64,000 nt of DNA. Origin: Paraphysoderma sedebokerense. Lineage: Eukaryota; Blastocladiomycota; Physodermatomycetes; Physodermatales; Physodermataceae. The notes beneath the pieces were generated by a model. It searched no databases. It was not told the DNA's origin and saw only the letters and a list, made by a program, of their open reading frames with translations. The translations under genes were made by a program, and so were the position numbers. The stretch spans positions 110,539 through 174,538 of the forward strand of contig JAHLJZ010000048.1 of NCBI GenBank assembly GCA_025602915.1. The letters run 5' to 3'. This document shows positions 5,421 to 43,977 of the stretch, one piece after another (positions within the stretch are counted from its first letter, which is position 1; the number at the start of each line of letters is the position of its first letter).

Positions 5421-6579
5421 ATCTTTATTCCCTGATATATTTGGAGTTTACATTTTTTACTTGAGAAGAAATTTAGACTCAAGGTTGTTGATTATAAGTG
5501 CATTATTCAAAATGTGCAGACTGTAGACTGTACATTATGGATATTAGCAAAGGATGCAGAATTGATATTCTACTTAAAGGCTCCAACAGATTCGTTTACC
5601 TTAAAACTTATTGGGAAAAAAAGAGCAGCGACGCTCCACAAATTAATTTTTCTGTACAATTGCATTTATGTGGGTACAGCATTTGTATCCATAAAAACAA
5701 TCAAATCAGGTAGAATACGAAGTCCTCAAAATATTTGGAGTCTTTTTCATCCGTTGACCTATTGCGTTTCTTGCGCTATCGCTTTTTATTTTTCCTTTTC
5801 TTGCGGCTTACTCTAACCGGTTGGTGATTCTTTGCATTTATCAAACACAATCTCCTCCTTCTGAGGAATCAAGCGACGATGAAACTGAGGAAAGTCAACA
5901 ACGTAACATCAGCAGTCTGTAACGCAGGGAGCGCCATGTAGCGGACACCCATTAGAAGAGTTTCTGTCTTGGCATCTACTCATTTGAGTACTAGGCACGA
6001 TTACGTGAAAGTCTCGCACGGATTTATACAGCGATTTATGGCAGAGAGCGAAATTGCTTCGATGCGGTCAAAACATAAATGCAGCATCGATAATAAATGT
6101 AGATACCTCGTACGTCTTGCTCTTTCATTTACGTTCATTCTTTAGACTTGATGATTGGTATCGGGCAAAAGAGATTGGGCCTTACGATCATTTCGAATTA
6201 CCAAAAATCTGTGATCAAAATCGCAGCAATTGGGATCACCTTTCACATGATATCTGACAAGAAAGCGCAGCAATAACAAATTTTGACCCGTTATCATATG
6301 TGTCTGATGGTAAGTCAGTAAATTCAAGTAGTGAACCGTCTGAGCTCATCTGAATAATCATTGCGGATTTCTGCTGTGCGATTGTGAACATAACCAATAA
6401 TCTGCTGGTTTGTATATCGTATAGTTATCGGAATACGCTAAAGCGGTGTAGATCCATTGATAATAATACTTTGCAGAAATTATTACGTATGATTGAGGCG
6501 ATTATGTTTGAAAGACCATTAAGAAAATCAATTTAAACTTCATGCGTTATTGATGCAACGCTTTGTATTAATACGTAAG
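5421..6579. other. Intergenic between dymeclin and secreted-protein gene
   Basis: About 1.1 kb. A 100-codon open frame at 5514-5816 (+) has no recognisable domain, no signal peptide and no convincing intron partner, so it is not called. The right part (6540-6579) shares short similarity with the region upstream of the broken paralogue near 16730 (both contain gatgcaacgctt), which is consistent with an old duplication of the promoter region. Confidence 0.5.
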
Positions 6580-6642
6580 CCTACGCGTTGCAGGTTTAAA
6601 TCCATTAAAATCCGGGTTTATTTTTAGAATGCCGAGAATGGG

Positions 6643-6649
6643 TATAAAA
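6643..6649 (+). promoter_or_regulatory. TATA box of secreted Cys-repeat gene (copy 1)
   Basis: TATAAAA lies 97 bp before the ATG, preceded by a block (GTTTATTTTTAGAATGC then GAATGG) that recurs upstream of the paralogue at 15429, where the sequence is GTTTATTTTTAGGAATGC then GGAATGGATAAAA. The same box is present at 17093 in the exact duplicate and as TATAAAA at 16841 before the broken copy. Confidence 0.6.
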
Positions 6650-6745
6650 AGAAATGCTTTCCTATATTTTAAACTATTAAATTCATCATCAAAATACATC
6701 TTATTATCAATCAATCAATCACTCTACACAAATTCTTACATCAAA

Positions 6746-7147
6746 ATGCTTGCTAAAACCATCGCTACTCTTACTTTCGCCCTCTTGGCTTCTTCTGCCA
6801 CCGCGTTCCCTCAAAGCGCTACACCAGCACCTCAAATTCAAGATCTTGGTAATGGCTGCTTCAGTGTTACTTTTAAATCCGGTGGTAGCTCCTCCAGTTC
6901 AAGAGTTTGTGGGCCTCCCGGATCTGGAGCTCCTCAAATAACAGATCAAGGCAATGGTTGTTTCTCAGTTGTCCTGGGTGGATCCACTTCCAGCGTATGC
7001 GCCAGCTCTTCTGGTGGAAGTCCGTCGTCTTCTACCGTTATACGCCCATTTTCAGCAACCGGCAATAATGCCGTCAATAGAATTTCACATGACACCAACA
7101 GTTCTCCAGCTTCTGTCAGACATGGCTCTTCCAACAACAGAGCCTAA
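6746..7147 (+). CDS. Small secreted Cys/Ser-rich repeat protein, copy A
   Basis: A 133-residue protein, read from the internal ATG at 6746 rather than an in-frame ATG at 6629, because the TATA box lies between them and because the signal peptide (MLAKTIATLTFALLASSATA, cleavage probably before FPQS) starts there. The mature part has two related units of about 27 residues: QDLGNGCFSVTF..SSSSSRVC and TDQGNGCFSVVL..STSSVC. Each unit has GNGCF followed by a second Cys after a Ser run, so there are four cysteines and probably two disulfides (inference). A Ser/Asn-rich tail of about 45 residues follows. The gene appears intronless, unlike its neighbours. I do not recognise the family. It is identical to the copy at 17196 and related to that at 15429. 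Secretion is well supported; function is unknown. Confidence 0.8.
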   Translation: MLAKTIATLTFALLASSATAFPQSATPAPQIQDLGNGCFSVTFKSGGSSSSSRVCGPPGSGAPQITDQGNGCFSVVLGGSTSSVCASSSGGSPSSSTVIRPFSATGNNAVNRISHDTNSSPASVRHGSSNNRA

Positions 7148-7302
7148 TTTAATTTCTTGGCCCTTTAAGCGGATGTAGATTCTTGAATTGTAAAACGGAG
7201 GAGAGTTGAGATAGTGACTGGTCAGATTGCAGCGCATCTACGTCCATTAGCATACTCTGTACCATTTTCTCTTGATTCTACAACTGTACTTTTGTTCCAT
7301 AT

Positions 7303-7738
7303 TTTGTATATTGTATAGTTATCATATCGCAAGAATTGAGCCGCTCAATGAACCATTCAAATTATTGCAGTATTATAAAATTGATTTCCCCTAATTGCAT
7401 CTGTTCCCGACTGTCCTTAAATTAAGCATATTTGATTATTTCCCTTTATAGGGCATTTTTATTTTTGATATAGCCAAAGTTTGAGCTTTGATATGAAGTG
7501 ATCACAACAGGAACAACATTCGGCAATTGGGCGATTACCGTTACATCATATGCATATATGCAATTTCGAAAGACAATCATTATTGTATTTTATTTTGCCG
7601 TTACCGCTATATTCAAAAACGCACTTCGGAAAAATGATTTTACTGGGTGGTTCCATTTCTAGCCTCTGGTGCAAGTTGATCTTCCTCGGTGAATTTCGAC
7701 CGGAACTCAATTTTCAAGTACATTTAAAAGTATTCATT
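7303..7738. other. Intergenic, diverged repeat then unique sequence
   Basis: The first 120 bases or so are a diverged match of the region after 17753. The rest is AT-rich spacer between convergent genes. No further gene was seen. Confidence 0.5.
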
Positions 7739-9502
7739 TCAAGTGGGTAAATGATGTAAATCTATGAAAACAACAAAAACGGCCAAAAGGCTGACTAAAC
7801 TAAGATAGAGTCGCCATCCTGTTACGACGTCTTGGCTGTTATAATTGGGACTATATAATTGATCTCTTAAAACATCTACATTGATTCGAAAAATGCTGGT
7901 GATATCTTTCATAAATAGCTCTTTCCTAGCGAATATGAGACGATTTAATTGTCGAGACGCAGTAACCTGAACGAGGACCACTGAAACTGCTAATACTATA
8001 TTAGTCAATTCCGCCATCTGCCATATAGGTTCTCCATGCGTGAAGAGTGTCTTGTCCAGCAATGCTATTGTTCCAATACAGCTTATGGACGAAATTCTGG
8101 AGACAAAGTTCAACTTTGAGCGAATAATCTGTGATCGTACTTCTTGAATTGACTTGAGGGAGAGGGTAAAATCCTCTGCTGAATCACTCGAAAGTTTTGA
8201 ATATATCCATCGCTTACTTATCAAGGACCATATAATGTCGTCGACAGCACCTGTCGGTGGGAGGAAGTCTATAGTATTAACGGTTTGTGTTGTGCTTACT
8301 CGATGAAATCCATTAAAAAACAAACCTCCGTCTTTTAGAACGACGAAAACAAAGTTGAGACCCAAATGTGTCAGTAAAAGGCTCACGTCATTTTCCGTGA
8401 CGAGTGCAACGCAGACAGTTAAATCTTCGATAAATCTCCAATAGTATGAACGATGAAGGAAGTGATAATCTGAAAACGCGAATACAGAGATTCCCTCCAT
8501 GATAAAGCTAAATATGCTAGTCCAAAGCCTGAACATTAACTTCCAAAGAATGTGGCTGCTAGAAGTTTTGACGTCAGAGAGATCGTAGGAAATACATCGA
8601 CCGAAACCTTTAGTGAATGACACGCATGCCGTTCGGATATATAGTTGGGCAAGAACAACAGGGATAATCGCACAGATACCATAGGTTAAGGCGTAGTGAA
8701 AATTCGGCCTTAAAGAATGTGGCCAATCGCTAAGGTCACACAGCCCAGTCCCTACTTTGTGTAGAGATCTTACAGATTGAATATGTGATGCGGCTGGTGC
8801 CAATGTACACTTTTTGTAGTCATGGTAGTAGCAGTAAAGACAAACAACAATCGAGATGTACGTTACTGGAATCGACCAAAGAGGAAAATGGAACAGAAAC
8901 CACATTATTGCTATGAATGCCACAGTAACTCCTACACTATAACCGAAAGGGGAAAATTTTAAGAAGTTTTGATACCGGATGTCGTCCTTTATGAGTGTTG
9001 CGGGTGTTGACAACTGAAACCCAAACCGTAACAATACAGGGAAGATGAGCAGTAGTATAGCGTATCCTGTTGGTACTTCGTACTTAGTCTAAACGCTCGT
9101 CTCTACAACATTACGGAACGAAAACAAACCAAATCGGAACCAATCTGACAAAAATTCAGCGTCCGCTCCGTAAACGGCGATGTATCCATTAAATATGAAG
9201 CAGTAGGCGAGATTAATGAAGATAACTGCAAAGGTACATAGATCTCGCCAGCAAAATTTGTTCGGGAAGTTGCATCGAAATGGTTCAATCTGGAACAGGA
9301 CAATAGCTCCTGTTGGTACAGCCTGGAACAAAATAAAGCGTACCAATGCCGGAGTAGTGCCCGGATAATGATAGTCTACTGTCTTGGAGTACTCTGCGTA
9401 ATATCTTAGGAAGTATGAAATAAAAGCTCCGACAATGGCAGACAGTATTGCGGCATTGATGCCGTCGAACCTAAGAAAGTGTCGGATTTGTCGTTCATTC
9501 AT
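7739..9502 (-). CDS. Orphan multi-pass membrane protein, paralogue M1
   Basis: Three exons, approximately 9089-9502, 8300-9085 and 7739-8270, giving a protein of roughly 550 residues with about ten to twelve hydrophobic segments. The N-terminal exon starts MNERQIRHFLRFDGINAAIL and contains FLRYYAEYSKTV, FQIEPFRCNFP and SDWFRFG. The middle exon contains FSPFGYSVGV, SLRPNFHYALTYGICAI and FLHRSYYWRFIEDLTVCVAL. The last exon contains WSLISKRWIYSK, EVRSQIIRSKLNFVSRIS, TIALLDK and the C-terminus DLHHLPT. The second intron (8271-8329) happens to be open in frame, but the other family members are interrupted at the same place after KD-A/G-G, so it is taken as an intron. I do not recognise the family; it is not an obvious transporter or GPCR. 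It is one of six relatives in the window, all on the same strand. Confidence 0.7.
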
Positions 9503-9980
9503 TTCTCATCTCTCTCGAGGTCGGATACTGAGCGAAAAGATTTACAATCTTGATCACTTAGCTATATACGGAATGCTTTCCAGAACTTAGGAGAAGCCAA
9601 CAAGATTCTTCGTTTTGGTATGTACCCTGCGAACTGCAAAGACGTTCTTTTGATCCAGATGCAATGATCACGTAGTGCATCTCGTAGAACAGCATCCAGA
9701 CTACAGGCCGAGGCGAAACGAATTTGAAAGATCCAGACGCATGAATTCTGATGCCGCCTCATGATTCTTGAGAAGTTCTCATGGATCGTTACTGTAGCCA
9801 TAATTTTATTGTATGAGAGGATAGTTATTCTCTAAATTGAAGCTGCATGTGTGACGACCAGGTTCCAATTTGAGTTCTGCATTCTGAAAGCGCGATAATA
9901 CAGTACGGATTTTGATATTTTGATAGTGTTTTTGATTGACTAGTTATGGTCACAACAAATCATAGTACCCCAATTCAATT
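9503..9980. other. Spacer between M1 and M2
   Basis: Contains a 79-codon minus-strand open frame (9562-9801) without recognisable domain or TM segment and without a counterpart upstream of the other family members. No feature is supported. Confidence 0.4.
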
Positions 9981-11728
9981 TTATGTAGGTAGATTGTGCA
10001 AATCTCCAAAAACACCGATAATGGCCAAGACACTAATCAGAGTAAGATAAGTTTTCCATCCTTTTAAAATTTTCGGGTCATCGTAATTGATGCTTTCGAT
10101 ATCTTTCTGTAAATCTACTGACTTATTCGAACAACAATTAGCAAATTCTTGAACCTTTAACTTCTTCCTTGCAAACATATACTTGTTGAGCTGTCGGGAA
10201 AGGGCAACTTGTATAATTACTGTTGCAAGAGCTACCACTATATTGGTACAGTTGGACATATGCCATATCGACTGACCATGCGTGAAAGCGGCATTGTCAA
10301 GCAATGCTATTGTACCGATTACGGTGATGGAGGAAATTCGAGAAACGTAGTTAAGATTAGATCGTATGATTTGCGACCGCACTTCATGAATCAATTTTCG
10401 CAGACGTATATTTGAATCAGACGATAAGGCGTGAGATTTTGAATATAACCATTTTCGGTTGACCGCGGACCATATGAGATCATCGACGAAACCTATAAAA
10501 GAAGTTAGGAACTTATCTATCAAGCAATTTTTCATGAAACAAGTAATCCAAACCAGCATCTTTAAGGACGATGAAGAAGGCATTGACAATTAAGAGAACG
10601 ATTAAGACAGTGAGATTGCGTTCTGTTACTAGGCCGATGCATGCCATCAAGTCTTCAAAAAATCTCCATAGATAGGAGCGATGTAGAAAATTATTGTCGC
10701 TGAACGCAAACACACTGTACAGTTCCATTATAAAACTGATAATACCTGTCCAAAGTCGAAATAGTAATTTCCACATAAATTGACGAGGAGACGACCTTTG
10801 ATCTTCACCCATGCTCGCAAGATAGTACAACAAACATTTTTCGTGGGATTCCGTTGAAAATGCGCAGGTAACATTGACATACAATTGAGCAAGGACGATA
10901 AAGGTGATGCCACACGCCCCATAGGCCAAACCGTAATGGAAGTTGGGTTTTAGAGGGTGTGCTGATGAGGTGGTGTCCGCCGTATTTAAATCATGTATCG
11001 AGAAAAGATCAAGCATGGATGAATTCGAAGTAGTCTTTGTATAATCACGAAAGTAGAGTGCCATGCAAATACCAATTGAAATATAAACTATCGGAACTCC
11101 CCAAGTCGGAAATTTGAGGAGATAGAATATGATGGTGGTGACAAAACCGCCACGCCGAAAACATATCCAAAAGGTGTAGACTTTAAAAAGTTCTGAAAAC
11201 GAGTACTAGCTGCCCTGTGAGCAATATTAGGATGATACTTCAGGCGGTAGCGTAAAATTACTGGATAAACGAGGAGTAATATTCCATATCCTAGAAAAAT
11301 TGTTACTTCCTTAAAGGCTGCCGAAATAAAAATGAAGTATCAAAGTGAATTTGCAATCAATACGTACCCACTCGGAACCAATTGGTTAAATATTTTGTGT
11401 TTTCGCCATGTATTACGATGTACGTATTGAAAGTCAGGCAGTAAAGAACACTGCAAACGACTACGGCAATGGTGTAGGGATCTTTGAAGTGAAATATTTT
11501 TGGGAAATTTACCCTAAACGGTTCCAATTGAAATATAGTTATGGCTATCGTGAATGTACTCTGAAAAACTAAATGACGGACAATTAATGCAGTCTGAGAT
11601 GGTGAAATGATTTCATGCTCAACTGTTTTCGAGTACTCTGCATGATAACGGAGGAAAAAAGAGAAAAATCCACCAAGGAAGATAGAGAGGAAAACTGCGT
11701 TGATACTGTCGAGCTTGAAAAGCAGCAT
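9981..11728 (-). pseudogene. Orphan multi-pass membrane protein, paralogue M2, with one frameshift
   Basis: Same three-exon plan as its neighbours: exon 1 from MLLFKLDSINAVFLS at 11728, a middle exon with STPFGYVFGV, LKPNFHYGLAYGACGI and FLHRSYLWRFFEDL, and a last exon with NRKWLYSKS, EVRSQIIRSNLNYVSRIS, TIALLDN and the C-terminus DLHNLPT. In the middle exon the reading frame changes at the run of four A (plus strand 11143-11146): upstream the frame reads STPFGYVFGVAV, downstream the homologous continuation IIFYLLKFPTWGVPIVY is in another frame, as if one base of the homopolymer were missing. All other exons and splice sites look intact. Either this is a very young pseudogene or a single-base sequencing or assembly error in a homopolymer; the sequence alone cannot decide. 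Confidence 0.65.
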
Positions 11729-12498
11729 TGGATCTCCCGCATAACTCTTATATCTCTAATTCAATATGTAGGGATCACATAAATGATGCGAGTACTGCAT
11801 TAGGTTGGGTGTGTGCTCTAGAAGGTTAATACTGTGTGAGAGGACATAAGATTTCGTGACTTTTTACCAATTATCGCGAAGCCGTTGTGTTCTAGACTTT
11901 GGACATTTTGACAAAAAAAATTCTCGACTTGATGATAATGCTACAAAATCAACAAGTGCAGTTTAATGCGGCTTTGACTTTTACATTCTTGATGATGTTG
12001 TGCTTAATGGTCTACAAAAAATCTAGCACAACTGGCTGGTACATCTTTTTCGGTTATTACTGTTTCTTATTTTAAACTCATCGTACAAATTGACTATGTT
12101 TAGCACTTATAGCACCAAGAATATAAAATTGAGATTATACATGTCTGAAATATGAATTGGATTTTGTAAAGTGGATTGACGTTCTGAAGGAATTTACTGA
12201 CGACATGTACCGTTCGATGGAAAAAGAATGAATCCAATGTCAACATATAACGGTTTAAATTGACGAACAGGTTCAATAAATGTATAATACTTAGTTTGGA
12301 TTGTATACATTATGGTAGCATAGATTTTGAATTGTAAACAAATATATCATGAAGGGATCAAATGTCAATATCCATTGGTTAAAAAGCGAGAAATGCGTAG
12401 AATTTTATACATGGATGACAGATATCATATGTTATATATACAGTACCGCTAAAATTTTGGATAAATACCCCCCAAGTGATAGGAAAAATAGAAAATGC
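11729..12498. other. Spacer between M2 and M3
   Basis: About 770 bp, AT-rich, with only short open frames and no recognisable element. It presumably holds the M2 promoter and the M3 3' untranslated region. Confidence 0.5.
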
Positions 12499-14275
12499 TT
12501 AAAGAGGTAAGTTATGTAAATCAGATAACACACCGAAGCATGCCAAGATACTCATGGCAGTGAGATACAACCGCCAGCCGTTCAACACTTCAGCGTCGCC
12601 ATAATTAATGCTATCAATTTCATATTGATGATCTCCTATCTCACTTGAAGAATTATTGATAATATCTCGCAGTCTCGCTTTTTTCTTTTCGAACACGAGA
12701 AAATTGAGTTGACGAGAAGCAGCAATTTGAATGACGACAACCGGAACAGCCAATAATATATTACTGAACTCTGACATGTGAAATATTGCCTCTCCATTGT
12801 TAAGATAAGCGTTATCAAGTAAAGCTATTGTTCCGATAAAGATAATAGAAGATATGCGGGAAACAAAACTCAATTTTGATCTTATTACTTGCGACCGTAC
12901 TTCGTGTATTAGCATTGGCAAACGTGTGGATACGTCGGAGGCTAATGAGTGAGATGTTGAGTATATCCATTTTCTGTTGATGAGGGACCATATTATATCA
13001 TCGATGAATCCTATTTTTTCCGGGAATTTAAGTTAGGCCGATTGCCTGATCGTAAAATAGTCTATTTGGATACACTCACCTGCATCCTTGAACATGACGA
13101 AGAAGAAGTTAAAAACTAATAGAAGTATCAATATTGTGCGATTGCGTTCAGTTACGACGCCTACAGAAACTGTCAAATCTTCTGTGTACCTCCAAAAATA
13201 CGAGCGATGTAGAAAATGGCTGTCACTGAAGGCGAATACACTGTACAGCTCCATGATATAACTGATGATGCTTGTCCATATTCGAAATACTAATTTCCAA
13301 ACTAACTGACTAGGAGACGACCGTTGATCCTCTCCGACGCTGGTGACGTAATAAGCCAAGCAGCTCTCCCAGGATTGGCTAGAGAATGTACATGTTGAAC
13401 TCACATACAGCTGCGAGAGGATGACACTGATAATTCCACATATACCATATGCCAGACCATAATGAAAATTGGGCTTCAAGGGATGTACATGTACTGATAC
13501 TTTAGTATCTTTCGTCGTTTCCATTTTTTGCGAAGAGTATAGAAACAATGTCGACGCGCTGGTAATCGTCTTGATATAGTCACGATAGTAGCAGTACATG
13601 CAAGTAGCAATCAACACGTACGTCATCGGGACGCTCCAAAAGGGAAAGTCGAATAGGTACAAAGCGAGGCTAGCAGAAAGAGTAGTGATGCCAAATACGT
13701 ATCCGAAAGGTGTTGCTCTCATGAAATTTCGAAACTGGACATTATTTTGTCTAAGAGTTGGGTCAGGGTAGAACTTCAGTCGGTAGCGCATCAGTAAGGG
13801 GTACGTAATGAGAAGGATCCCGCAGCCTAGTGTTAGGATTCCATTAGCGTCATTACAATAGCCAATCTGTAAATTATTGACATGACAATCAGCACCTACC
13901 CAATCGATACCAATTTGTTAAAACATCAGTATTTTCATTATGCAAAATCATGTAGAGATTGAATGACAGGTTATAAAGTAAGCTGAAGACTATTATACCG
14001 ATTACGTAGGGATCTTTAAAATGAAATATGTGCGGAAAGTTTCTTCTAAAGGGTTCCATTTGGAACAGGTTGAGTCCTACCATCGGTAAACCCTGAAAAA
14101 CTAGGCATCGAACGACTAATGGATATGAGCCTGCTGGGAGAGTTTCTTTATCTAATGCTTTTGAGAACTCGGCCAGATAACGGAGGCAGTACGATAAGCT
14201 AGCACCGAGGAACATGGAAATTATAGCAACGTTTATGCTGTCAAACCGCAGACGCTGAATTCGTTGTTCCAGCAT
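12499..14275 (-). CDS. Orphan multi-pass membrane protein, paralogue M3
   Basis: Three exons, about 13903-14275, 13080-13863 and 12499-13013, roughly 560 residues. Exon 1 begins MLEQRIQRLRFDSINVAIIS and includes CLRYLAEFSKAL, FQMEPFRRNFPHIFHFKDPY and TNWYRLG. The middle exon has RATPFGYVFGI, YCYYRDYIKT, LKPNFHYGLAYGICGI, FAFSDSHFLHRSYFWRYTED and GVVTERN. The last exon has IDDIIWSLINRKWIYS, EVRSQVIRSKLSFVSRIS, GTIALLDN, SRQLNFLVF and ends DLHNLPL. About ten to twelve TM segments. It is the intact member closest to M2, and its open middle exon shows what the M2 frame should look like. No known family recognised. Three neighbours in head-to-tail order suggest tandem duplication. Confidence 0.75.
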
Positions 14276-15310
14276 CCTTCAATTATATATACCTAAGCAT
14301 AAAGTTTTCAGATTGTACGGGATTGTCAACTTTGAAACCGGATTGAATACCTGACTTCAAGATTGAGCTTTTGTATGGGATGAAAGAAAAATTTTGTAGT
14401 GCATTGTTGTCAGGAATCTCGCACGATATGATGGTCAACTTATCGTAGATTCCTCAATCTTTTGTGATTCACGTGTCGATTGGAGAATAGTCTGGTGACT
14501 GGTCACGTCGGCCAGAATGGAACTAATTTCGTGGTTGTATGGATGGGCCCGTGGATGTATTCTGCAAATTGCGGAAATATCGTGCAACATCTCGAGAAGA
14601 GTCGAGATACCCAATGCAGCGAGCAATGATATCGACATCCTGGAGATAGTGAATTGTAGAAGAATGCAGATTCGCGATTTTACATTCCCCGTCAATTCCA
14701 TTCTCTTTCAGAACAAGTCAACAAAGTCAACGCAACCGCTCTCAAAATACAGGAAATAATACATAACTTATTTGGGTATATCGAACTAAGTTTGTCTTTC
14801 GGGGGAATTCATTATCTTCTATTAATATTAGATAGCACAATTGTGTGCGAACGTATGTAAGAAAAACAAAGATTCAGTATGCAGATTATGGCTGGTGACT
14901 TGAGATGGCAATCTGCAGGCCGGTTATAATCAGTGTTGCATGTCGAAAGATAACGCTGCGGGAAAAGCAATCGAGGTCTATTGTCAATCCATTCAATTTC
15001 ACTGTTGTAAGGAGCCAATAGAATTCGAAAATTCTTAAAACTTTTAGCATTGTAAACCTATTGTCAGGTCGTCGAACTAGTTTCAATACCCTTGCCCCTC
15101 GGTTTGTCGATCTTACAGACTTATCGATCAATAGTATGTCCCATAACTGTTATATTCACACAGTTACAACGACAATATTACGTTATTATGAAGCATTGTT
15201 CCTGAAAATATATTTAAGCATTGAACTGTAAACGCCTGGATTGTAAATGCATGCTCACCACACCAACTAAGGTGGCTTGCTGCATTATGTGTGTTGCGAG
15301 CTTGTATTCC
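14276..15310. other. Spacer between M3 and secreted-protein gene C
   Basis: About 1 kb. A minus-strand open frame at 14435-14701 (88 codons) has weak hydrophobic character but no homologue upstream of the other M genes and is not called. Nothing else is supported. Confidence 0.4.
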
Positions 15311-15345
15311 GCGTTTATTTTTAGGAATGCAAGGAATGGATAAAA
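15311..15345 (+). promoter_or_regulatory. Promoter block shared with copy A (GTTTATTTTTAG(G)AATG .. ATAAAA)
   Basis: The block GCGTTTATTTTTAGGAATGC followed by AAGGAATGG and ATAAAA ends about 85 bp before the ATG at 15429. It corresponds base for base, apart from a few changes, with the block at 6613-6649. Conservation of a block of this length between paralogues whose intervening untranslated regions differ suggests a functional core promoter. Confidence 0.5.
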
Positions 15346-15428: not shown

Positions 15429-15959
15429 ATGTTTGCTCGATCTATCGTCACTCTTGCTCTCGTCATCTTGGCTACTTCCGCTATAGCTATCCCTCAAACC
15501 GCCACACCGGCACCCCAAGTTCAAGATCTAGGGAATGGTTGCTTCAGCGTCACTGTGAAGAAAGGCGGCGGCTCATCCAGCTCGACTGTCTGTGGAAAAC
15601 CCGGATCAGGTGCACCCAAAGTTTTAGACAAAGGGAACGGTTGTTTCGAAGTCACCATGGAAAATTTTAGCTCCACTATGTGTGCAGGCACTTCCGGTTC
15701 TGCGATATCTAGCTCCTCTTCTTCTTCTTCCGTCATTGTAAAGCGTGACAATTCAGATGCCCCGGTACCTCAAGTTCAATACCTCGGAAACGGCTGCTTC
15801 AGTATTACCGTAAAAACAGGTGGTAGCTCATCTAGCTCAACCGTTTGTGGAGCTCCCGGATCTGGAACTCCTAAAGTCACAGACAAAGGAAATGGCTGTT
15901 TCGAAGTCGTTTTGGGTGGATCCACCTCCAGTGTCTGCGCAAGCTCTTCCGGATTATAG
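15429..15959 (+). CDS. Secreted Cys/Ser-rich repeat protein C, four units with internal Lys-Arg site
   Basis: A 176-residue protein without introns. Signal peptide MFARSIVTLALVILATSAIA, cleavage likely before IPQT. Four Cys-pair units follow, arranged as two modules: residues about 31-80 (QDLGNGCFSVTV..SSSSTVC, then LDKGNGCFEVTM..FSSTMC) and about 122-172 (QYLGNGCFSITV..SSSSTVC, then TDKGNGCFEVVL..STSSVC). The modules are joined by a poly-Ser run and VIVKRDNSDAP, which carries a dibasic KR of the kind cut by kexin-type proteases. Each module corresponds to the whole cysteine region of copy A, so this gene arose by internal duplication. Eight cysteines, all paired in the same spacing. Family unrecognised; role unknown. 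Cleavage at KR is an inference from the motif. Confidence 0.8.
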   Translation: MFARSIVTLALVILATSAIAIPQTATPAPQVQDLGNGCFSVTVKKGGGSSSSTVCGKPGSGAPKVLDKGNGCFEVTMENFSSTMCAGTSGSAISSSSSSSSVIVKRDNSDAPVPQVQYLGNGCFSITVKTGGSSSSSTVCGAPGSGTPKVTDKGNGCFEVVLGGSTSSVCASSSGL

Positions 15960-16800
15960 ATTAGGTTAGTTGGACATTAATTTTCCAACTGCGCAATTCA
16001 AAGAGCGGACATTAAATGGTACATACACTAATAATAATGAGATAGTAAAATATTAAAACACGGATTGAATCAGATGAAAAGGAATTTTGATGCTGAAGCA
16101 TTCTGCGATTTGAATTTTCAGTAGATTTACTACATATAATATGGAGTTGTCTTCAATTTTATAATTGTAATTTTATGTAAGGTCTGAATACAAATGGTGA
16201 CCAGCTCAATATATCGCTCGAATAAATAAAATGATTCCAAGTATCTTTCTTACGTGGTTCATACTTCACTATGACAGCAAACTTAAGTTTAACTTCATGT
16301 AAGTCTACATACTTTCATGCGGCGATAAACATTATAATCTGTTTATGATTCATTTTTTTGATCATGCAAACTTCAAGCCCCAGACTCTACGTTATTAGTA
16401 TTACGTTATACAATAACGTAAATACTGACCGTGCAGAAACACTCAGAGTGAGCAGCGGATTAGTAGGGATCAATTATGATACAAAATAACTTCAATTTAC
16501 CCGAAATGGTAGAAACTACGCAGGGCAGAAATATGTCTCGAATGAAGCTTAATGCGCAATTGCACAGGCAATGATAATTCACAAATTATCTGAGATGAAG
16601 TCATCGACAAAAAGACCCAAAGCAAAGATTCACAATGAATTCTAGGCGCTCTGCTAATATGGTGAGTTTCACGTAGTTAGTACTATTATTTTTAGGAGCA
16701 TCGCGAAGCTGCGGTTTTGAATGCAACAATTATGGATGCAACGCTTCGTGTGCTTACTGCCGGAACTTAATCGCTTACCTGATTATTATTTACGGGGCTT
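15960..16800. other. Spacer between gene C and broken gene B
   Basis: AT-rich, with no open frame longer than background and no recognisable element. A small inverted sequence at 16390-16430 (tacgttattagtattacgt..) was noted but is within chance for this base composition. Confidence 0.4.
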
Positions 16801-16923: not shown

Positions 16924-17049
16924 ATGTTCGCTAAAACCGTCGCTACTCTTGCTTTCGCTTTCTTGGCTTCTTCTGCCACTGCGTTCCCTCAAAGCGCTAC
17001 ACCAGCACCTCAGGTTCAAGATCTCGGTACCTACGCGTTGCAGGTTTAA
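16924..17049 (+). pseudogene. 5' fragment of secreted Cys-repeat paralogue B, cut by the duplicated block
   Basis: The open frame keeps a complete signal peptide (MFAKTVATLAFAFLASSATA) and the first mature residues FPQSATPAPQVQDLG, then meets the duplicated block at 17030 and reads six foreign residues (TYALQV) to a TAA at 17047. The lost part would begin with the first GNGCF unit. It has its own TATA box at 16841. Sequence identity with copy A in this fragment is around 85-90 percent by eye, so it was a distinct paralogue, not a recent copy. The residual 41-codon frame could still produce a secreted peptide of about 21 residues, but with no cysteine it is best called a broken gene. Confidence 0.8.
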
Positions 17050-17752
17050 ATCCATTAAAATCCGGGTTTATTTTTAGAATGCCGAGAATGGGTATAAAAA
17101 GAAATGCTTTCCTATATTTTAAACTATTAAATTCATCATCAAAATACATCTTATTATCAATCAATCAATCACTCTACACAAATTCTTACATCAAAATGCT
17201 TGCTAAAACCATCGCTACTCTTACTTTCGCCCTCTTGGCTTCTTCTGCCACCGCGTTCCCTCAAAGCGCTACACCAGCACCTCAAATTCAAGATCTTGGT
17301 AATGGCTGCTTCAGTGTTACTTTTAAATCCGGTGGTAGCTCCTCCAGTTCAAGAGTTTGTGGGCCTCCCGGATCTGGAGCTCCTCAAATAACAGATCAAG
17401 GCAATGGTTGTTTCTCAGTTGTCCTGGGTGGATCCACTTCCAGCGTATGCGCCAGCTCTTCTGGTGGAAGTCCGTCGTCTTCTACCGTTATACGCCCATT
17501 TTCAGCAACCGGCAATAATGCCGTCAATAGAATTTCACATGACACCAACAGTTCTCCAGCTTCTGTCAGACATGGCTCTTCCAACAACAGAGCCTAATTT
17601 AATTTCTTGGCCCTTTAAGCGGATGTAGATTCTTGAATTGTAAAACGGAGGAGAGTTGAGATAGTGACTGGTCAGATTGCAGCGCATCTACGTCCATTAG
17701 CATACTCTGTACCATTTTCTCTTGATTCTACAACTGTACTTTTGTTCCATAT
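17030..17752 (+). repeat. 723-bp exact duplication, copy 2
   Basis: Identical to 6580-7302. The left boundary falls after GGTA in the coding region of paralogue B, with no more than one or two bases of shared sequence at the junction. The right boundary falls inside the 3' untranslated region, beyond which the two loci continue as diverged homologues. That asymmetry points to gene conversion on the right and a non-homologous join on the left. Confidence 0.9.
17196..17597 (+). CDS. Small secreted Cys/Ser-rich repeat protein, copy A'
   Basis: 133 residues, identical in DNA and protein to the gene at 6746-7147, including the TATA box at 17093 and the untranslated leader. It starts 147 bp after the stop of the broken paralogue B fragment. 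Because the whole promoter was copied, it should be expressed like copy A (inference). For the domain description see the copy A entry: signal peptide, two GNGCF units with four cysteines, and a Ser/Asn-rich tail. Confidence 0.8.
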   Translation: MLAKTIATLTFALLASSATAFPQSATPAPQIQDLGNGCFSVTFKSGGSSSSSRVCGPPGSGAPQITDQGNGCFSVVLGGSTSSVCASSSGGSPSSSTVIRPFSATGNNAVNRISHDTNSSPASVRHGSSNNRA

Positions 17753-18218
17753 GTTATATATTGTATAGCTATCATATCGCAAGAATTGAACCGCTCAATA
17801 AATCATTCAAATCATTACAATATTACGAAATTAATCTGCCCTAATTGCATCTGTTCCCAATTTCAGGGTCCGTAAAATTAAACATGTCTTATCTTTTGTC
17901 TTGATAAGGTATTTGCTATTTTTATATCGCGAGAATTTGGAGTTTGACTGAAGTCATTACATACATTAATCAAAAGTTAGGCCATTTGCACTACATCACA
18001 ATTGTATCTGCAATTTTATAAACCAAGCAAAGTTGTAGCTTTTTATACTTTCACTGTAATAATTGAAAACCGAGTATGTATGACAGTTCACAAATTGACA
18101 TTGACTTTTGAAAAAATCAGCCGCGATCAATTTTAAGTTCAAACACAGACGCCATTTCACCACAGTTCAAAATTATACCTTCACATTAAAATATCTTGTC
18201 GTTTCGAATTACATCAAC
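17753..18218. other. Spacer between copy A' and Nup37
   Basis: The first part is diverged from 7303 onward; the rest is unique AT-rich sequence that presumably includes the Nup37 promoter. No feature is called. Confidence 0.4.
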
Positions 18219-26521: not shown

Positions 26522-28270
26522 TCACAAGGGTAGATTATGCAAATCAATAAAGACAACAAAAATTGCCAAAATGCTCATAAGACTGAGATACAGTTTCCAG
26601 TCCGCTATCACTTTCGGATCTTCGTAATCAATGATATCGAGTTCATCTTGAAAATTCTCTGGCTTATTCTGAAAACAACTCGCAATGTCTCTCACTCTCG
26701 CCTTCTTCCTTGCAAACACGATGAAATTCAGCTGACGGGATGCAGCAACTTGTACGAGGACAACAGAGACAGCTATGATGATGTTAGTCAAATCGGACAT
26801 TTGCCATATTGTATCACCATGTGTGAATAAGGTTTTGTCGAGCAGTGCTATGATGCCAATACAAGTGATGGACGATATCCGTGAAACAAAATTCAGTTTC
26901 GAGCGTATAACTTGTGATCGTACTTCTTCTATTAATTTTAATGATAATGTGGATGAGTCAGGAGTACTTGAGTAAGGTTTGGAATATATCCATTGTCGAT
27001 TGATCAGAGACCATATCATGTCATCGACGAAGCCTATAGAATGGAAAAAGTATAAGAGAGTGGATCTGCTGATAATTATAAAGCGGAGCAACACGAACCA
27101 GCGTCTTTTAGCATGATGAAAAAGAAATTAAGAATTAAAAGAATCATCAGCAGGTTAAAATTGTTCTCCGTCACAAGGCCGACGCAAACCATCAAATCTT
27201 CAGTAAATCGCCAAAAATAAGAGCGATGTAGAAAGTGGTTATCAGTGAAGGCGAATACACAATATAGTTCCATAATAAAACTAAAGACACTCGTCCATAA
27301 TCGAAACATCAACTTCCACAGTAATCGACGGGGAGAAGAACGTTGGTTATCACCGACGTTGGTTAGGTAATATGACAAGCAACTTTCCCAGGATTCGGTG
27401 GAGAATGCGCAAGTTGCATTGACATACAGTTGCGCCAACACGATAAGAATAATTCCGCAAATGCCATAGACAAGACAATAGTGAAAGTTGGGTTTCAAAG
27501 GATGTACCAGTATATTTGTATTTTTCTTTTCTGCTTCCATCTGCCCTAACGTTGGAAGGGCCAGCATGGATGAATTGGAGGTTGTTTTTGTGTAATCACG
27601 GTAATAACAGTAAATACTGATGATAATCAAAGCATACGTCACGGGAATACCCCAGATGGGGAAATTGCACAGATACCATGCAACGGCGGTAAAGACAACC
27701 GTGATAACAATCACGTAACCGAAAGGAGAAAATTTCATGAAATTGCGATAATAGACATTTTTGGCCTTTAAAAATTCGTCATGATGATTTCTAAGGCGAT
27801 GTCTCAGCACGAAAGGGTAAACTATTAGTAGCAGAGCGTATCCTAAGTTATGCGTTAAACACTTGGCAATATAGCAATTCATGTAACAACAATTACGAGA
27901 ACGTACCGAGACGAAACCAATTTGTCAAGTTTTTCGTATTTTTTGCATACAGCACGATGTAAGTGTTGAATGACAGGGTATAGAGAAGACTGAATAATAA
28001 GATACTGATGACATACGGGTCTCTGAAGTGAAAAATACGTGGAAAATTCTTCCTAAATGGCTCGAGCTGAAGTAAAGTGACGGCTGCAGAGGGAATAGCC
28101 TGAAATAATATAAAACGAACGACTAATGCAATTTGAGATGGTGACCCTTCGGTTACTCCATCTACCGTTTTCGAATACTCAGCATGATACCGCAGAAAAT
28201 ACGAAAATATTACGCCTAAAATGAGTGAAAAGACTGCGGCGTTGACGCTGTCAAACCTGAAGAATAACAT
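26522..28270 (-). CDS. Orphan multi-pass membrane protein, paralogue M4
   Basis: Start placed at MLFFRFDSVNAAVFS (28270), equivalent to MLLFKLDS in M2, although the frame is open to an ATG at 28558. Three exons on the same plan as M1-M3. Landmarks: FLRYHAEYSKTV, LEPFRKNFPRIFHFRDPYV and TNWFRLG in exon 1; SPFGYVIVIT, YCYYRDYTKT, LKPNFHYCLVYGICGI and FLHRSYFWRFTEDLMVCVGL in exon 2; VDDMIWSLINRQWIYS, EVRSQVIRSKLNFVSRIS, IALLDK and C-terminal DLHNLPL in exon 3. About 550 residues with ten to twelve TM segments. It is closest to M1-M3, yet sits 12 kb away from them next to the diverged M5 and M6. Two Cys near the extracellular-looking loop after YVNATC/ESC are conserved in M2-M4. Confidence 0.75.
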
Positions 28271-28629
28271 TAAGCTTCTTTGCGTGCTGAAATGTCTTTG
28301 AAATTCCCCCTTAATTAGTACGTGATGATAATTATATATGCTGGAAGTTACCTTTCGGACATATTCGAACTTCCGTTCCCTTCCTTTGGCCCGGTTGACA
28401 GGGCGGTAACAATAGGGTGCTCTGTCAACGAGGTTTAGTGAGAGAGTGCCAACCATGACTACACTTGCAGATAAAACTTTCGGCGTATAATCTGTCTTTT
28501 TATTTATCATTATTAATGTACATATCGGGAGATTGAGTCTTCTTTTTAGCGGACGCATGGTTTAGTGTAGCAAAGAATCAATAATGGATTATCAGCAATG
28601 AGAATATTTACAATATTTACAAGCACAAT

Positions 28630-30550
28630 CTAAATTGGCAAATTGTTCAAATCCACAGTTAAAATGAGCATCGATGCGACATCAAGTGTGAATAACAGTC
28701 TTCGCCATTTGGATATTACGCGAGTATCATCGATTTCAAATTCCTCGATCTCTCGATTTAATTGTTCATTCTTTTTGCAGTACCTACGATATAACTGGAT
28801 AACGTATTGAGTTTTCTTGGCAAATATCATAAGACATAGCCATCGAGAAACCAATAACTCTAAGAAAATAATGAAGAATAAGACAATTGATTTTTCAAAT
28901 GTCGCGTTAGGCCATATTCCTCCTGCTCCTGCAAAAATTTTATCAAAGACGGCAATCGTAGCTATGTAAACTGCCGCGGTTACCCGGGAATAAAAATTCA
29001 ACTTAGATCTGATAGTTTGTGTACGAATTTGGTCAAACATGCGAAGTAAAAATTGAGGATCGGCTTCTACATAAGCGTCCATGTTGTATATCCATTTTCG
29101 GTGGGTAATCGAAAAAATTACATCTTCTATGAACCCGCCATCCTGATTGACAACTTCTTAGTTTCCATTATGAGATGTGAGAGAAAAAGGACAATAAAAA
29201 CCTTTGCCACGACTAAGACAAATTGAAGTACAAGTAAAACAATCGTCAGAACATCACCATTCGAGTTCATTAGGCCGATAGTAACAATTAAATCTTCAGT
29301 ATGTCGCCAAAAATAACTAAAATGAAGAAAGTCGTTTTCTACAAATGCAAGGACACTGATGTATTCCATAGTCGTCGTTGCGACGGCGCCAAAGAAGCGA
29401 AATAATAATTTCAGTATTAAATGAGTTCCGAAGTCAGTTCGATAGCTCAAATTGTTCACTAAGCACCCGGTCACATCGGAGGTTGCTTGGGAACTCAATG
29501 CGCATATTGTTCCAGAGTATATCTGTCCTAGTAAGCCAAAAATTCGCAGCCCTGGAATGATTTGAGTGAATGTAGTCGTGACGCAGCAGCTTATTTCGAC
29601 GAAGTCTTACCTAATCCCCAGCCTAACATATACCACCAATTCGGTTTGAGAGTATCTCTGAAAAATTCATTCTTCGGGTCGTACCACAGCAGAAATGAAG
29701 AGGTTGTGACGGATTTCGAAAATGTTTTAGTGTGGTCCCTGTAATATAACCCAGCAGAACCAAAACAGAATAGAAGTAGAAAGACGACCGCCCATGGTGC
29801 CTGCACGAGGAATGAGTACGATAATCCTGCTGATATTGTAGTGATAAGGATAGCCGGTCCAAATGGGGTGAATCTGGAAAAATTATCGTATAAATTGGTT
29901 TCAGCGGATGACTCCAACTTTTGGTTTTCCTTCAGATTCGTTTTGCTATTTTCAAGCGAATTCCTTCTCACGTAATATAACCTCAACCTGCAGGCAACAG
30001 GTATACAAGGTAAAGAAAATATGACTATTACCCAATATATCACTAATGCGAAGGTGAACTCTTCATTGCGCATGCCGAACGTCATAAGGTAGGCGTTTGA
30101 TCCAAAATTGAGGATAAAACTAACAGCAATAACTGCTATTGAAAAGACATCAGTCCACTGGAATATCGATGGAAAATTGCGTTCAAATGGTAACAGCATT
30201 ATAATTGTAACTAGAAAACATGGAAACGCTTGAAATAAAATCAAATTCAACCCCAGGTTGAGTTGTTGCTCGAAAGTGTTGATATCCGTTGAACTTGAGA
30301 GGAAACGGAGGGAAAAGCCGAAAGCGATGGCGACAAGAAAGGACAAAAGAACAGCGAGGGGTAATTCATTCTTGAAAATGATGGATGATAATATGTCAAC
30401 TGGAGAGTATATTTTATTGACTGACGGTGCGACAGATTCAGCAATCGAGGGTCGAGCCCGAGAAAGTCTCCTTCCGAGAGCGTGAAGAATTGTCGGTTTT
30501 CTCGTAACTGTGAGTTGTGCCGCAACCTGCCTTGTTTTCTGTGTTTCCAT
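28630..30550 (-). CDS. Orphan multi-pass membrane protein, divergent paralogue M5
   Basis: Start at METQKTRQVAAQLTVTRK (30550) or an upstream in-frame ATG at 30631. Same overall plan as M1-M4 but clearly a different subfamily, shared with M6. A 60-residue basic and Ser-rich N-terminal tail precedes TM1. Landmarks: FLVAIAFGFSLRFLSSSTD, LFQAFPCFLVTIIML, PFERNFPSIFQW, YDNFSRFTPFGPAIL, GLYYRDHTKTFSK, DTLKPNWWYMLG, then in later exons FLHFSYFWRHTEDLIVTIGL, HRKWIYNMDAY, QIRTQTIRSKLNFYSRVT, SRWLCLMIFAKKTQ and the C-terminus DLNNLPI. Equivalent motifs in M1-M4 show common descent (FLHxSYxWRxTEDL, RSKLNFxSR, DLxNLP). Four or more exons. Function unknown. Confidence 0.7.
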
Positions 30551-30742
30551 GTGCGTAATATTGAAAAAATATTCGAAATACGATGAATATTTCGAAAACC
30601 GACTCGGGCATTGCATTGTCGCCAATTCCAACGAATTTCTCGAACAGTGACCGCCGGGGCCTGGTTATATTGTCAGGTTCATTTTACATGTCAGTTTATA
30701 TACAAATAATTTGCAAATCTAACTGTTCTCAAGCTCAACTTT

Positions 30743-32940
30743 CTACATTTTACCTATACCTCCGCCCGGTAGGTTAGATAAATCAGTCGCAAGAATAAAC
30801 ATTGCTGCCGCATCCATACAATACAGAAAAGTGCGCCAGTGAAGAATGACCAAAGAATCGTCTAAATTGAATTCATCTAAGTGAGTTTTAAATACATCGT
30901 TTTTCAAATAATACTTTTCGTTCAGTCTATTCACAAACTCCATTTTTTTCGTGAACACGATCAACGAAAGCCAACGCGACAGAAACAATTCTATCATGAC
31001 GATGACCAGGATGATAAAAATATTAGTCAACGAATTCGCAGGCCAGATTGAGTCTCCGTGAAAAAATAATCTGTCGAATATTGCGATTGTGCCTATGTAT
31101 ATGGATGATGTCATTCGTGAGAAAAAGTTCAGCTTGGATCTTATGGCTTGCGTTTGGATTTCGTCAAAAATTTTGGTCAAAAAACCGGGATCATCCTTAA
31201 CATATTCTTCCATAGCGTAAACCCACTTTTTGTAGGATAAGGAGAATATCAAGTCATCAATTAAACCGCAATCCTATAGGTAGAGAAATGGATTAAAACT
31301 TGGGCACGTTCCAACAACAAGAATAAAAAGGGGCTAATATTACCCTAACAGCAACGAAGACAAAATTAAATATGAGCAATACTACGATCAATTCGGGACT
31401 AGTTGTATTCACCAACCCTATGGCGACAATCAAGTCTTCTGTATGTCTCCAAAAATAGCTAAAATGTATGAAATCCCCTTCCAAGAACGCGAGAACGCTG
31501 ATGTACTCCACTGTCACAGTCGCGACAGCTGCAAGTGCACGAAAAGTCAAAGTCAAAAATAGTTGTGTCCAGAATGAAGCCTGTTGGGAATTTTGTTGTA
31601 TCAGGCAGCGTTGGTACTCAGACTTAAAATCAGTTAAGGAAGGGTCAGTCGAAAGAGCGCAGAGAGTGCCGGTGTAGATTTGCCCAAGAAGACCAAATAT
31701 TCTTATAGCTGAAACAAAAGTCAGTTCACCTAAGAACTAAGCTGACATGGCCGTTGAATGTAACTAACGTACCGAGTGTCCAAGCAATCACATAGTATAG
31801 ATTGGGTTTAAGTGTGTCTCGAAAGAAATCACTTCTAGGATCATACCGAAGTAAATACGTTGAAGATGTCATAGCCCTTGAGAATGTTTTTAAGTGGTCT
31901 CGGTAATAAAGCCCCGCGCAAAGAAAAAGCAAAAGCAATAGAAACGCGACCACCCATGGTGCATCACCCTGAATGTAATATGAAAGTCCGGCCAACAGAG
32001 TTGATACAACGACCGTTGGACCGAATGGAGTAAATCTGCAAAAATTGTCGTATGTGCTCATATCCATTGATGCGTCATCCAGTCTTGCTAGCGTCGCTCT
32101 AATTCTCCTTTCCACAAATAATAAACGAATTCTGCAAACCAGTGGGTACAATGGTAACATCATGATGTAGATAATCCAGTAGGCACCAAAATAGTAGACG
32201 AATTCCTCTGTGGCAGACCCAAAGGATGCTAAAAATAAATTGAAAGTGAACAAAAAGATGAAACTGAAAGACAGCAAGACCATGGTAAAAGGATCGCGAT
32301 ATCGAAATTGATGCGGAAAGTTCCGAAAAAATGGGAAAAGCATGATTACATGAACCAAAAAACATGGAACGGCTTGAAACAACATAAGAGATGTAATAAA
32401 AGAAAAGGTTGAACGTGTGAATTGTGGTGTGGTATTAGAGAGAAAAGTGCTGGAGGACTTGTTGAAAACATTTTTTGTGGTATCAGCATGAAACCGAAGC
32501 CCGAAAGAAAAAAATATTCCCATCAGAAAAGAAATTGTGATTGCAACGATAAGGTCATTGTTTTTAAAAATTGCCCTTAATCTGTTGTAATTAGTTGTGT
32601 ACTTCTTGTATTTTGGTTCTCTCTGTTCGTTTGCCTGCGGCTTTGGTTCTTCTCTATTCAAAGACGGCACAGAAAGCAAGGAAGGAGACGGCGGACGAGA
32701 ATTGGAGGTAACTTCATTCTCTGACTTTACTGAGTTGGAGCGAGAAGACCTTACAGATGACGTTAATTCATTTTCCGGGGCTAAAAGAAGCGGTGATGGC
32801 GGATTTAATGAAGGAAGCGACTTGTAATTCGTCTTTCTGGAGGAAAACGAAGCTTCGAGAGAGGTGGTTATAATTTTCGGTATCCTTGAAAGATTACTTT
32901 CCTTATCCGACTCCATGTCTAGTGTACAAATGAAGTGCAC
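30743..32940 (-). CDS. Orphan multi-pass membrane protein, divergent paralogue M6
   Basis: The long first exon starts at 32940 (MHFICTLD) or at 32916 (MESDKESNLSRIPK). An N-terminal tail of about 115 residues, rich in Ser, Pro and Arg (SSVRSSRSNSVKSENEVTSN, RPPSPSLLSVPSLN), looks like a disordered cytosolic, possibly phosphorylated region. Membrane part: TISFLMGIFFSFGLRFHADT, LFQAVPCFLVHVIMLFPFF, YDNFCRFTPFGPTVV, GLYYRDHLKTFSR, DTLKPNLYYVIAWTLG, FIHFSYFWRHTEDLIVAIGL, YKKWVYAMEEY, IQTQAIRSKLNFFSRMT, SRWLSLIVFTKKME and DLSNLP followed by GGGIGKM. It has seven extra residues after the conserved C-terminal motif. About 630-700 residues. Sister to M5. Confidence 0.7.
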
Positions 32941-41579: not shown

Positions 41580-43438
41580 TTAGCGCAACATGCTTTCAAA
41601 GACTTCGTTTTCACCTCCTTCCATCACCTTGGAAATGGGGAGAGTGCGTGGTCTACATTAGAAGAGTTGTTAATTCACGAAGAACTGATAACTGCAATGG
41701 AGTGAAAAACATCTTCACGTACCTGTTGTGTTGAACCAAGTATTCTTCGGCAGCAGCCAAACCTTTAGCTCTCTCATTTTGAGTAGCACCTTTACCATAC
41801 CATACGAAAACTTCGCAGCAGCAATCAAAGATAAAGACGTCGTTGGTATCGAACATGGCTTTGGTGATTTTGGTTGGGGGAGAGGTAGCCTCGTGCTTGA
41901 ATTCCAATTGACCAGAGGCATCAGAAAGTCTGGGTATTATAGAGTGCCAGGTTAGGATGAAAGTCAAGTGGAATATGAAAGGAAGAGAGGAATGAATCAC
42001 TACACACCTGTACAATTTCTTTTCATTGCTAACGAGTTTATCGTCACCACCTTCGGCAGCAGACTTGATAGGACCAGGTCCACCGATGGCATTCCAGAAT
42101 GCACCCAAATCTCTGCCACCTTCCTCTATATTGATTAAAATAAAGTCATATTAGCACACTCATTATCCAAAGCATCAAAACCATAATCGTGACACAAACC
42201 AAAGACTTCGACAGTCGGGATACCCCTCCTTTCATCATCAAGAGCTCTGCATAATTCTGCAGCTTTGGCTTTTTCCCAGGGACCAGATTCTTTACCGTTG
42301 AATTGCATGATTTTCAAACCAAGGTCAGCAATGAATACGTCACCGCTGTTCAAAGAGGTATAACTCATTGGAACTTCACGGACGACAAGACGTTTCATGG
42401 TTCCCTTGACGTGAAGGAGACGTGGGCGATAGGTTTCTGGTTTAACTTGTTTGAAACCTAGAGTGTGAAATTTGAGATGAATATTGGAATGATGGGACAG
42501 TGATAGGGAAAAAGTCTTTAGGAACATACCACTGTCGACACCGCCGTCTTGAACCATAAAGACTGGGAAGTAGCCGAGGAAAAGGTCGGACTCGAAGCCT
42601 TGAACCTAGATTTATAGTAGAATTGGGCCGTGAGAAATTGGGTTATAATGGAGGAGGAGAACCTGCTTTAGGCAGAAACAGAAGCAAAAAACATACCTCA
42701 CGATGTTGAACTGGAAGACCGTGCAAATAATCATCAAGTTCGACGGTCTTGTAAGCGGCGGTACCAGCTTCATCGGTGGTAGTTTTTTCACCTATTAGGT
42801 ATTCGAAACAAATATTCATATTCGTTTAGCATTGAATTGAACAAGAGAAGACTTGGGACGATGGAAAAGAACTCACCGAGCCAAAAGTGCAAGTCGTGGG
42901 CGAGTTTATCTTGCTTCTTATAGGTCTGTAGTCCATTATCAGATACAGTTAGTCCTTAATACAGGCAGTTTTTGAATAAAATTGAAAAGAGAGTGGCTTA
43001 AACTTACATTTAAAACAATGTAACTGTCACCAGAGTAGAAGCGACCGTACTCGTTCTTTGGAATGGGCTTCACTTTGAATTGTTCGACTCTCCAGACGGA
43101 AAGACCGCTATTAAAACACAAAGTTCAAAGACAAAAAGATTATCAGTACATGTATGCAATAACTTTTGTCTAGTACATTGAGACGGAACGAATGGAGCAT
43201 GGATAACTTACACATCCTTTCCGACACCTTTCCAACTGGTCTCTTTATCGGCACCTTCAAGGCGAGCTTTCTTTTCGAGCTCAGAGCCGAGGTTGGCAAT
43301 GTTGGATTCGTTAATGTCTATTTATCATCCAAATGAATGCCAAAAAGTTAGAAATTGGGTTCATGTCCTCGCATATAGCCTCCTCGCACGCGAATTAAAC
43401 TTGAGAGAACACGAACTGAGTTGCTTAGACTTTATCAT
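41580..43438 (-). CDS. Severin-type actin-severing protein, copy 1
   Basis: About nine exons; tiny first exon MIKSKQL (43438-43417), last exon ends [15 protein letters not shown]. Three gelsolin repeats as in Dictyostelium severin: [130 protein letters not shown]; then [38 protein letters not shown] and [11 protein letters not shown]. Around 370 residues, the severin/fragmin length rather than six-repeat gelsolin or villin. Role: Ca2+-dependent severing and capping of actin filaments. Paired with a close paralogue 0.5 kb upstream (43978-45955) with the same exon plan. Confidence 0.9.
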
Positions 43439-43977
43439 TTTTATACTCTTGGGTATTAGTTTCAAACGACGGTGGTTGAACTGTGCAGAGGGCAAATGAG
43501 AGTTTTATATAAGAGGGAACTCAACGCTGGCGTTACTTCAAAAGAAGGAGTCGTGGTCGAAATGGAATCTTCTCCCTGGAAAATTGTTACTGCAATTGGT
43601 AAAATGTCATGGCTCTCAACTTGGTCTGGAGTTGTCAACCCTACCGAGGGAATTCTTCCACATGTTGCATTAAAAATAATCAATATTTTTTATACTGATT
43701 TTTCTTTTGCCCGCATGACAAGGTTTAAATGTTAATTATCGTTTCATTATTTTCACCGGTCAATGTCAAAAATCTGCGAGATAAATCCTGAGATGTTCCC
43801 CAATTCGGGTTCTCTTGCTCAGCCGAACGCTGCTGCCAAGTCCACAAATGATATAGTTTTTGTTGGTTTATTCAATATCAATGTGAGATTTTAACCTGAT
43901 AAGTAAATATATACATATATGTATCTGATATAAGTAGCCATAGTGCACCTATTAGATCTTATCAGCTGATATACGAT
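43439..43977. other. Spacer between severin copies
   Basis: About 540 bp between stop of copy 2 and start of copy 1 on the same strand; open frames here (43462-43735) are short and lack domains. Presumably the copy 1 promoter. Confidence 0.4.

Follow-up and report, generated by a model that had tools for sequence, protein, structure and literature searches.

The A and B loci and their surroundings

The DNA analyzed is a single stretch of 64 kb, referred to below as the window. Its plus strand carries three paralogous genes, here called A, B, and C, and a second copy of A, called A2. Gene A (6746 to 7147) encodes a protein of 133 amino acids (aa) with a signal-peptide-like N terminus and GNGCF-type repeats. 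Its start was assigned to the codon at 6746, which aligns with the start codons of B and C, and an in-frame ATG at 6629 was dropped in favor of it. Gene A2 (17196 to 17597) is intact and identical to A. It lies behind the truncated gene B (16924 to 17049), an open reading frame (ORF) of 41 codons plus a stop, in which 106 bases of B itself are followed by 20 from a block of sequence shared with the A locus. Splicing that would join the stub of B to A2 is conceivable. The stub of B, read from its ATG at 16924, differs from A at 10 of the 106 coding bases (9.4%). Gene C (15429 to 15959) encodes 176 aa and is 61.9% identical to A over 97 aa. With proteins A and C as queries, no further family members were found in the window, the remaining matches having E values of at least 2.1.

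Read by eye, the proteins of the A family look as if they start with a signal peptide, and their repeat takes the form QDLGNGCFSV...VCG. No curated family passed its threshold for either protein (Pfam for A and C, NCBIfam for C). Protein A had no Pfam match at E values up to 1, and the best candidates for protein C were PF19079 in Pfam (24.9 bits, below the cut-off of 27) and TIGR04203 in NCBIfam (14.6 against a cut-off of 60). A PDB search with protein C gave four weak matches (E, 0.043 to 0.87). The predicted model of C was poor (mean pLDDT, 55.9; pTM, 0.37) and, at low confidence, places a helix at the N terminus with short strands after it. Pattern searches returned 50 stretches from GTDB genomes for protein C and 6 stretches from IMG/VR for protein A, none of them a relative, in collections that cover no eukaryote genomes. 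A near-identity DNA search of a plasmid collection gave no match, and a literature search, a result of little weight here, found no report of the A/B locus.

The gene layout of the window is compact. Among its other genes are those for KRR1 and an mRNA cap methyltransferase and a CEP104-like gene with CEP104 domains at 59885 to 61027; CEP104 belongs to ciliated organisms, and taken with the compact layout it suggests that the DNA is probably that of a zoosporic fungus. Two copies of a gelsolin-repeat gene, which share an identical run of 33 bp, lie on the minus strand at 41653 to 45366. The minus strand also carries an array of related genes at 7739 to 14275 and 26522 to 32940, read as encoding multi-span membrane proteins, with frames apparently interrupted by introns; a Pfam search with four ORFs from this array gave nothing above the cut-off. 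At the gathering threshold, Rfam had no match in the window, and a tandem-repeat search of the window found three arrays, none of them near the A or B locus.

An exact 723-bp block at two loci

The sequence at 6580 to 7302 recurs at 17030 to 17752 on the same strand, with all 723 bp identical, as the earlier note had described, and in a letter-by-letter comparison the match extends by 0 bases to the left and 0 to the right. The block is made up of 166 bp upstream of gene A, its 402-bp coding sequence including the stop codon, and 155 bp downstream. Among direct repeats of at least 25 bp, it is the longest exact one in the window, the runner-up being 151 bp long. It likewise tops the 19 self-matches of the window with at least 150 columns and an E value of 1e-15 or lower (16 of them distinct, with A and A2 identical and three rows repeated), and the longest identical runs of the other 18 measure 10 to 151 bp. 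At 9% divergence, 723 bp would be free of differences with a probability of about 2e-30, and at 5% with one of about 8e-17. With no difference observed, the upper bound on divergence is about 0.4% (3/723), compared with 9 to 13% between A and B. A2 is therefore young or recently homogenized, the two options that had been offered previously.

Several simple origins of the second copy were considered. The two copies start 10,450 bp apart with other ORFs between them, so that the copy is not adjacent to its source, and they share a diverged right flank; plain tandem duplication is thus unsuitable, in agreement with the earlier assessment. Transposon insertion was discarded because a repeat comparison at the block ends found no terminal repeats of at least 14 bp and inspection of the flanks by eye showed no target-site duplication of 1 to 8 bp next to the two ends. 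A retrocopy would begin near the transcription start and end in poly-A. As read by eye, the TATA-like stretch within the 166 upstream bp and the lack of poly-A at the block end tend to speak against one.

The runner-up repeat is an exact tract of 151 bp (48908 to 49058 and 51204 to 51354) shared by two members of a three-copy family, four frames of which had no Pfam match. The match containing it is 75.9% identical overall, a level at which the longest identical run is expected to be about 21 bp. Compared without gaps, the flanking stretches of 100 bases show 71 differences on one side of the tract and 52 on the other, counts that small insertions probably inflate. The third family copy matches the tract at 79% and its surroundings at 71 to 73%, so that conservation may contribute a little to the identity of the tract. 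Judged by its sequence, the tract suggests that conversion also happens elsewhere in the window. At 42739/45312 and 49590/54259 there are weaker identical runs, of 33 and 44 bp, respectively.

Borders of the block and the upstream regions

The limits of the exact match place the left breakpoint at 17029/17030 and the right edge at 7302/17752. To the right, the flank of B at 17753 to 18050 (plus strand) is a diverged homologue of about 7303 to 7600, as delimited by stepwise identity and BLAST. The right flanks of A and A2 differ at 14 of 106 ungapped bases (13%). Identity per 100 alignment columns runs 86, 63, and 60 and then 40, 41, and 34; the homology fades after approximately 300 bp, and the BLAST match stops at 7506/17961. 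The lower identity that had been reported for the right flanks was thus confirmed. As the stub and the flank have diverged to the same order, both are consistent with being original B sequence.

Gene A is flanked by a 21-bp direct repeat, the right unit of which (7303 to 7323) begins exactly at the right edge of the block; the left unit (6409 to 6429, plus strand) matches it at 20 of 21 bases. A pattern derived from this match itself occurred on average 0.00 times in 100 shuffles. A circle formed between the two repeat units was also weighed as the origin of the copy and abandoned, since the copy lacks 6430 to 6579.

The left border is of a different kind. The codons for QDLG in B end at 17028 and the block begins at 17030, one base later, so the earlier description of an abrupt start within the coding region of B after QDLG is accurate. 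Coding base 106 of B is joined here to position -166 of A relative to its start codon, and directly left of the junction B and A have no bases in common in register. The upstream sequences that would have to pair, A from -166 to -55 and B from -162 to -40, agree in 54 of 132 columns (0.41), inside the range of 30 shuffles (mean, 0.32; standard deviation, 0.07; maximum, 0.43). Ordinary interlocus gene conversion needs both tract ends in homology and was therefore rejected, as it had been in the earlier note. Since GTA is present in the left flank of A two bases before the break, the join could still have involved microhomology with a loss of two bases, or one or two added bases.

The junction also bears on whether A sequence was merely misplaced inside B during assembly or library construction. 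The exact identity is longer than short reads, and the absence of N from the window means that gaps may have been filled. In addition, the junction creates GGTACC at 17026 to 17031, one of eight such sites in the window; this is a KpnI site, and it could hint at a cloning chimera. However, an overlap misjoin requires common bases at the join, and the left flanks of A and B directly share none. The joined sequence does not agree with GGTAATGG, the continuation expected from A. Ligation of two KpnI ends fails as an explanation, since GGTACC is missing from the breakpoint in A. Some other sort of chimeric clone or read could still be the source, and we regard an artefact as rather unlikely overall.

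Further upstream, A and B share a distal element outside the copied block, at 6547 to 6566 in A and 16730 to 16749 in B (both plus strand), with 18 of 20 bases matching. The two elements are collinear, at -199 and -194 from the respective start codons, and the match has an E value of 0.003, in one of nine comparisons and over 20 bp. When upstream regions were compared within 15 bases of the diagonal in either direction, the observed score was reached in 0 of 1,000 mononucleotide shuffles for A-B, 0 of 1,000 for A-C, and 232 of 1,000 for B-C. The A-C match (6611 to 6649 with 15308 to 15345) lies inside the block. The distal A-B element lies left of the breakpoint, where A looks continuous and A2 is not, and on this modest evidence from sequence comparison A is the likely donor. 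The block itself contains the TATA-like stretch, read by eye, without the distal element common to A and B. Of the earlier proposal that a complete gene with its promoter had been copied, the part concerning the gene holds (full coding sequence), while a full promoter is called into question by the position of the distal element.

Origin of the second copy

The locus combines an exact block, diverged homology on the right, and a non-homologous left junction. Those are the marks looked for in the product of a one-ended repair: an ectopic copy identical at 723 of 723 bp, homology at the right border, and none at the left. The lack of homology at the left junction and an upstream A-B alignment within the range of shuffles favor such a repair over ordinary conversion, insofar as the sequence alone can be read. 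We consider it probable that A was copied into B by one-ended repair, with homology used on the right and end joining on the left, and one-ended copying accounts for the features in one step. A truncated B followed by an intact A copy, as the earlier note had it, would then arise as follows. A break or stalled fork would have arisen in B, and its repair would have copied from A, approximately 10 kb away, after pairing, on the right, between the homologous 3' flanks of B and A. Synthesis would have proceeded leftward, presumably through the 3' region of A, its coding region, and then the 166 bp upstream. The new end would have been joined, probably by end joining, to the broken end of B at coding base 106 without directly common bases. 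The expected product is the upstream region of B with the 41-codon stub and, behind it, an intact A copy carrying the TATA-like stretch. The second long exact tract in the window, the 151 bp shared by other paralogues, also counts in favor of this reading.

There is precedent for such an outcome. In mouse embryonic stem cells, gene conversion has been found to end beyond homology and to be rejoined to the second end of the break (PMC5104497). In the small sample of cloned junctions described there, every junction had microhomology or added bases and none was blunt, and the left junction seen here, without plain microhomology or added bases, counts against a repair of this kind. Two further points count against one-ended repair. 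The polarizing evidence is modest (the single 20-bp element and the null B-C comparison), and A as the donor is moderately supported in the repair model. For yeast, PMC3924818 gives maximum-likelihood mean conversion tracts of about 50 to several hundred bp and also cites an average minimum tract of approximately 500 bp; the 723-bp block exceeds the maximum-likelihood means.

The same product could be reached in two steps. An insertion or tandem duplication would first have put a second gene copy behind the B stub, and ordinary conversion from A would later have homogenized this copy up to the edge of homology. A conversion-like tract occurs elsewhere in the window, and identity ends on the left where homology does, as expected where conversion stops. 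Two events are required, however, and the upstream part of a second copy derived from B would hardly pair with that of A, an objection that is void if the second copy was derived from A. In many duplicated blocks of Drosophila, divergence climbs toward the edges (PMC2588116), whereas identity here is perfect right up to the left edge. Such a history appears unlikely to us. The earlier view that one-ended repair fits best holds with regard to the homologous right border and the lack of common bases on the left; a single event is more likely than an insertion homogenized later.

A replication template switch from B to A and back to B, in place of the repair of a broken end, would give an identical product through a non-homologous jump in and a homologous return. 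Replication template jumps usually use microhomology, and the left junction shows none directly; we hold a switch of this kind to be quite improbable.

One-ended repair resembles one-sided invasion, or coupled homologous and nonhomologous double-strand-break repair, under which Puchta 1998 is reportedly named: one border is homologous, one is not, and the donor is unchanged. Interlocus (ectopic) conversion between paralogues is alike in leaving an exact tract in a diverged background. Here, in contrast, one end lies beyond homology, so that the recipient is broken and gains upstream sequence where conversion would replace like with like. Chimeric or partial gene duplication by illegitimate recombination can also give a truncated gene beside an intact copy; it needs no homologous border, whereas the right border here is homologous. 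The system in PMC5104497 is a reporter in mouse cells, while the present case is a reading of one natural locus without visible microhomology.

The exact second copy is real in the sequence and its reading as a repair product is reasonable; the repair outcome is of a known kind, and the locus looks like a tidy natural example of it. It is highly improbable that a recurrent process is at work in this repeat-protein family, in which diverged relatives would time and again receive a donor cassette of upstream region and secreted-protein gene and so form arrays of stubs with intact genes. If reads confirm the arrangement, the locus would be a clean natural case in which repair with one-sided homology rearranged genes in one step: one paralogue was lost, and another was gained together with just the proximal part of its upstream region.
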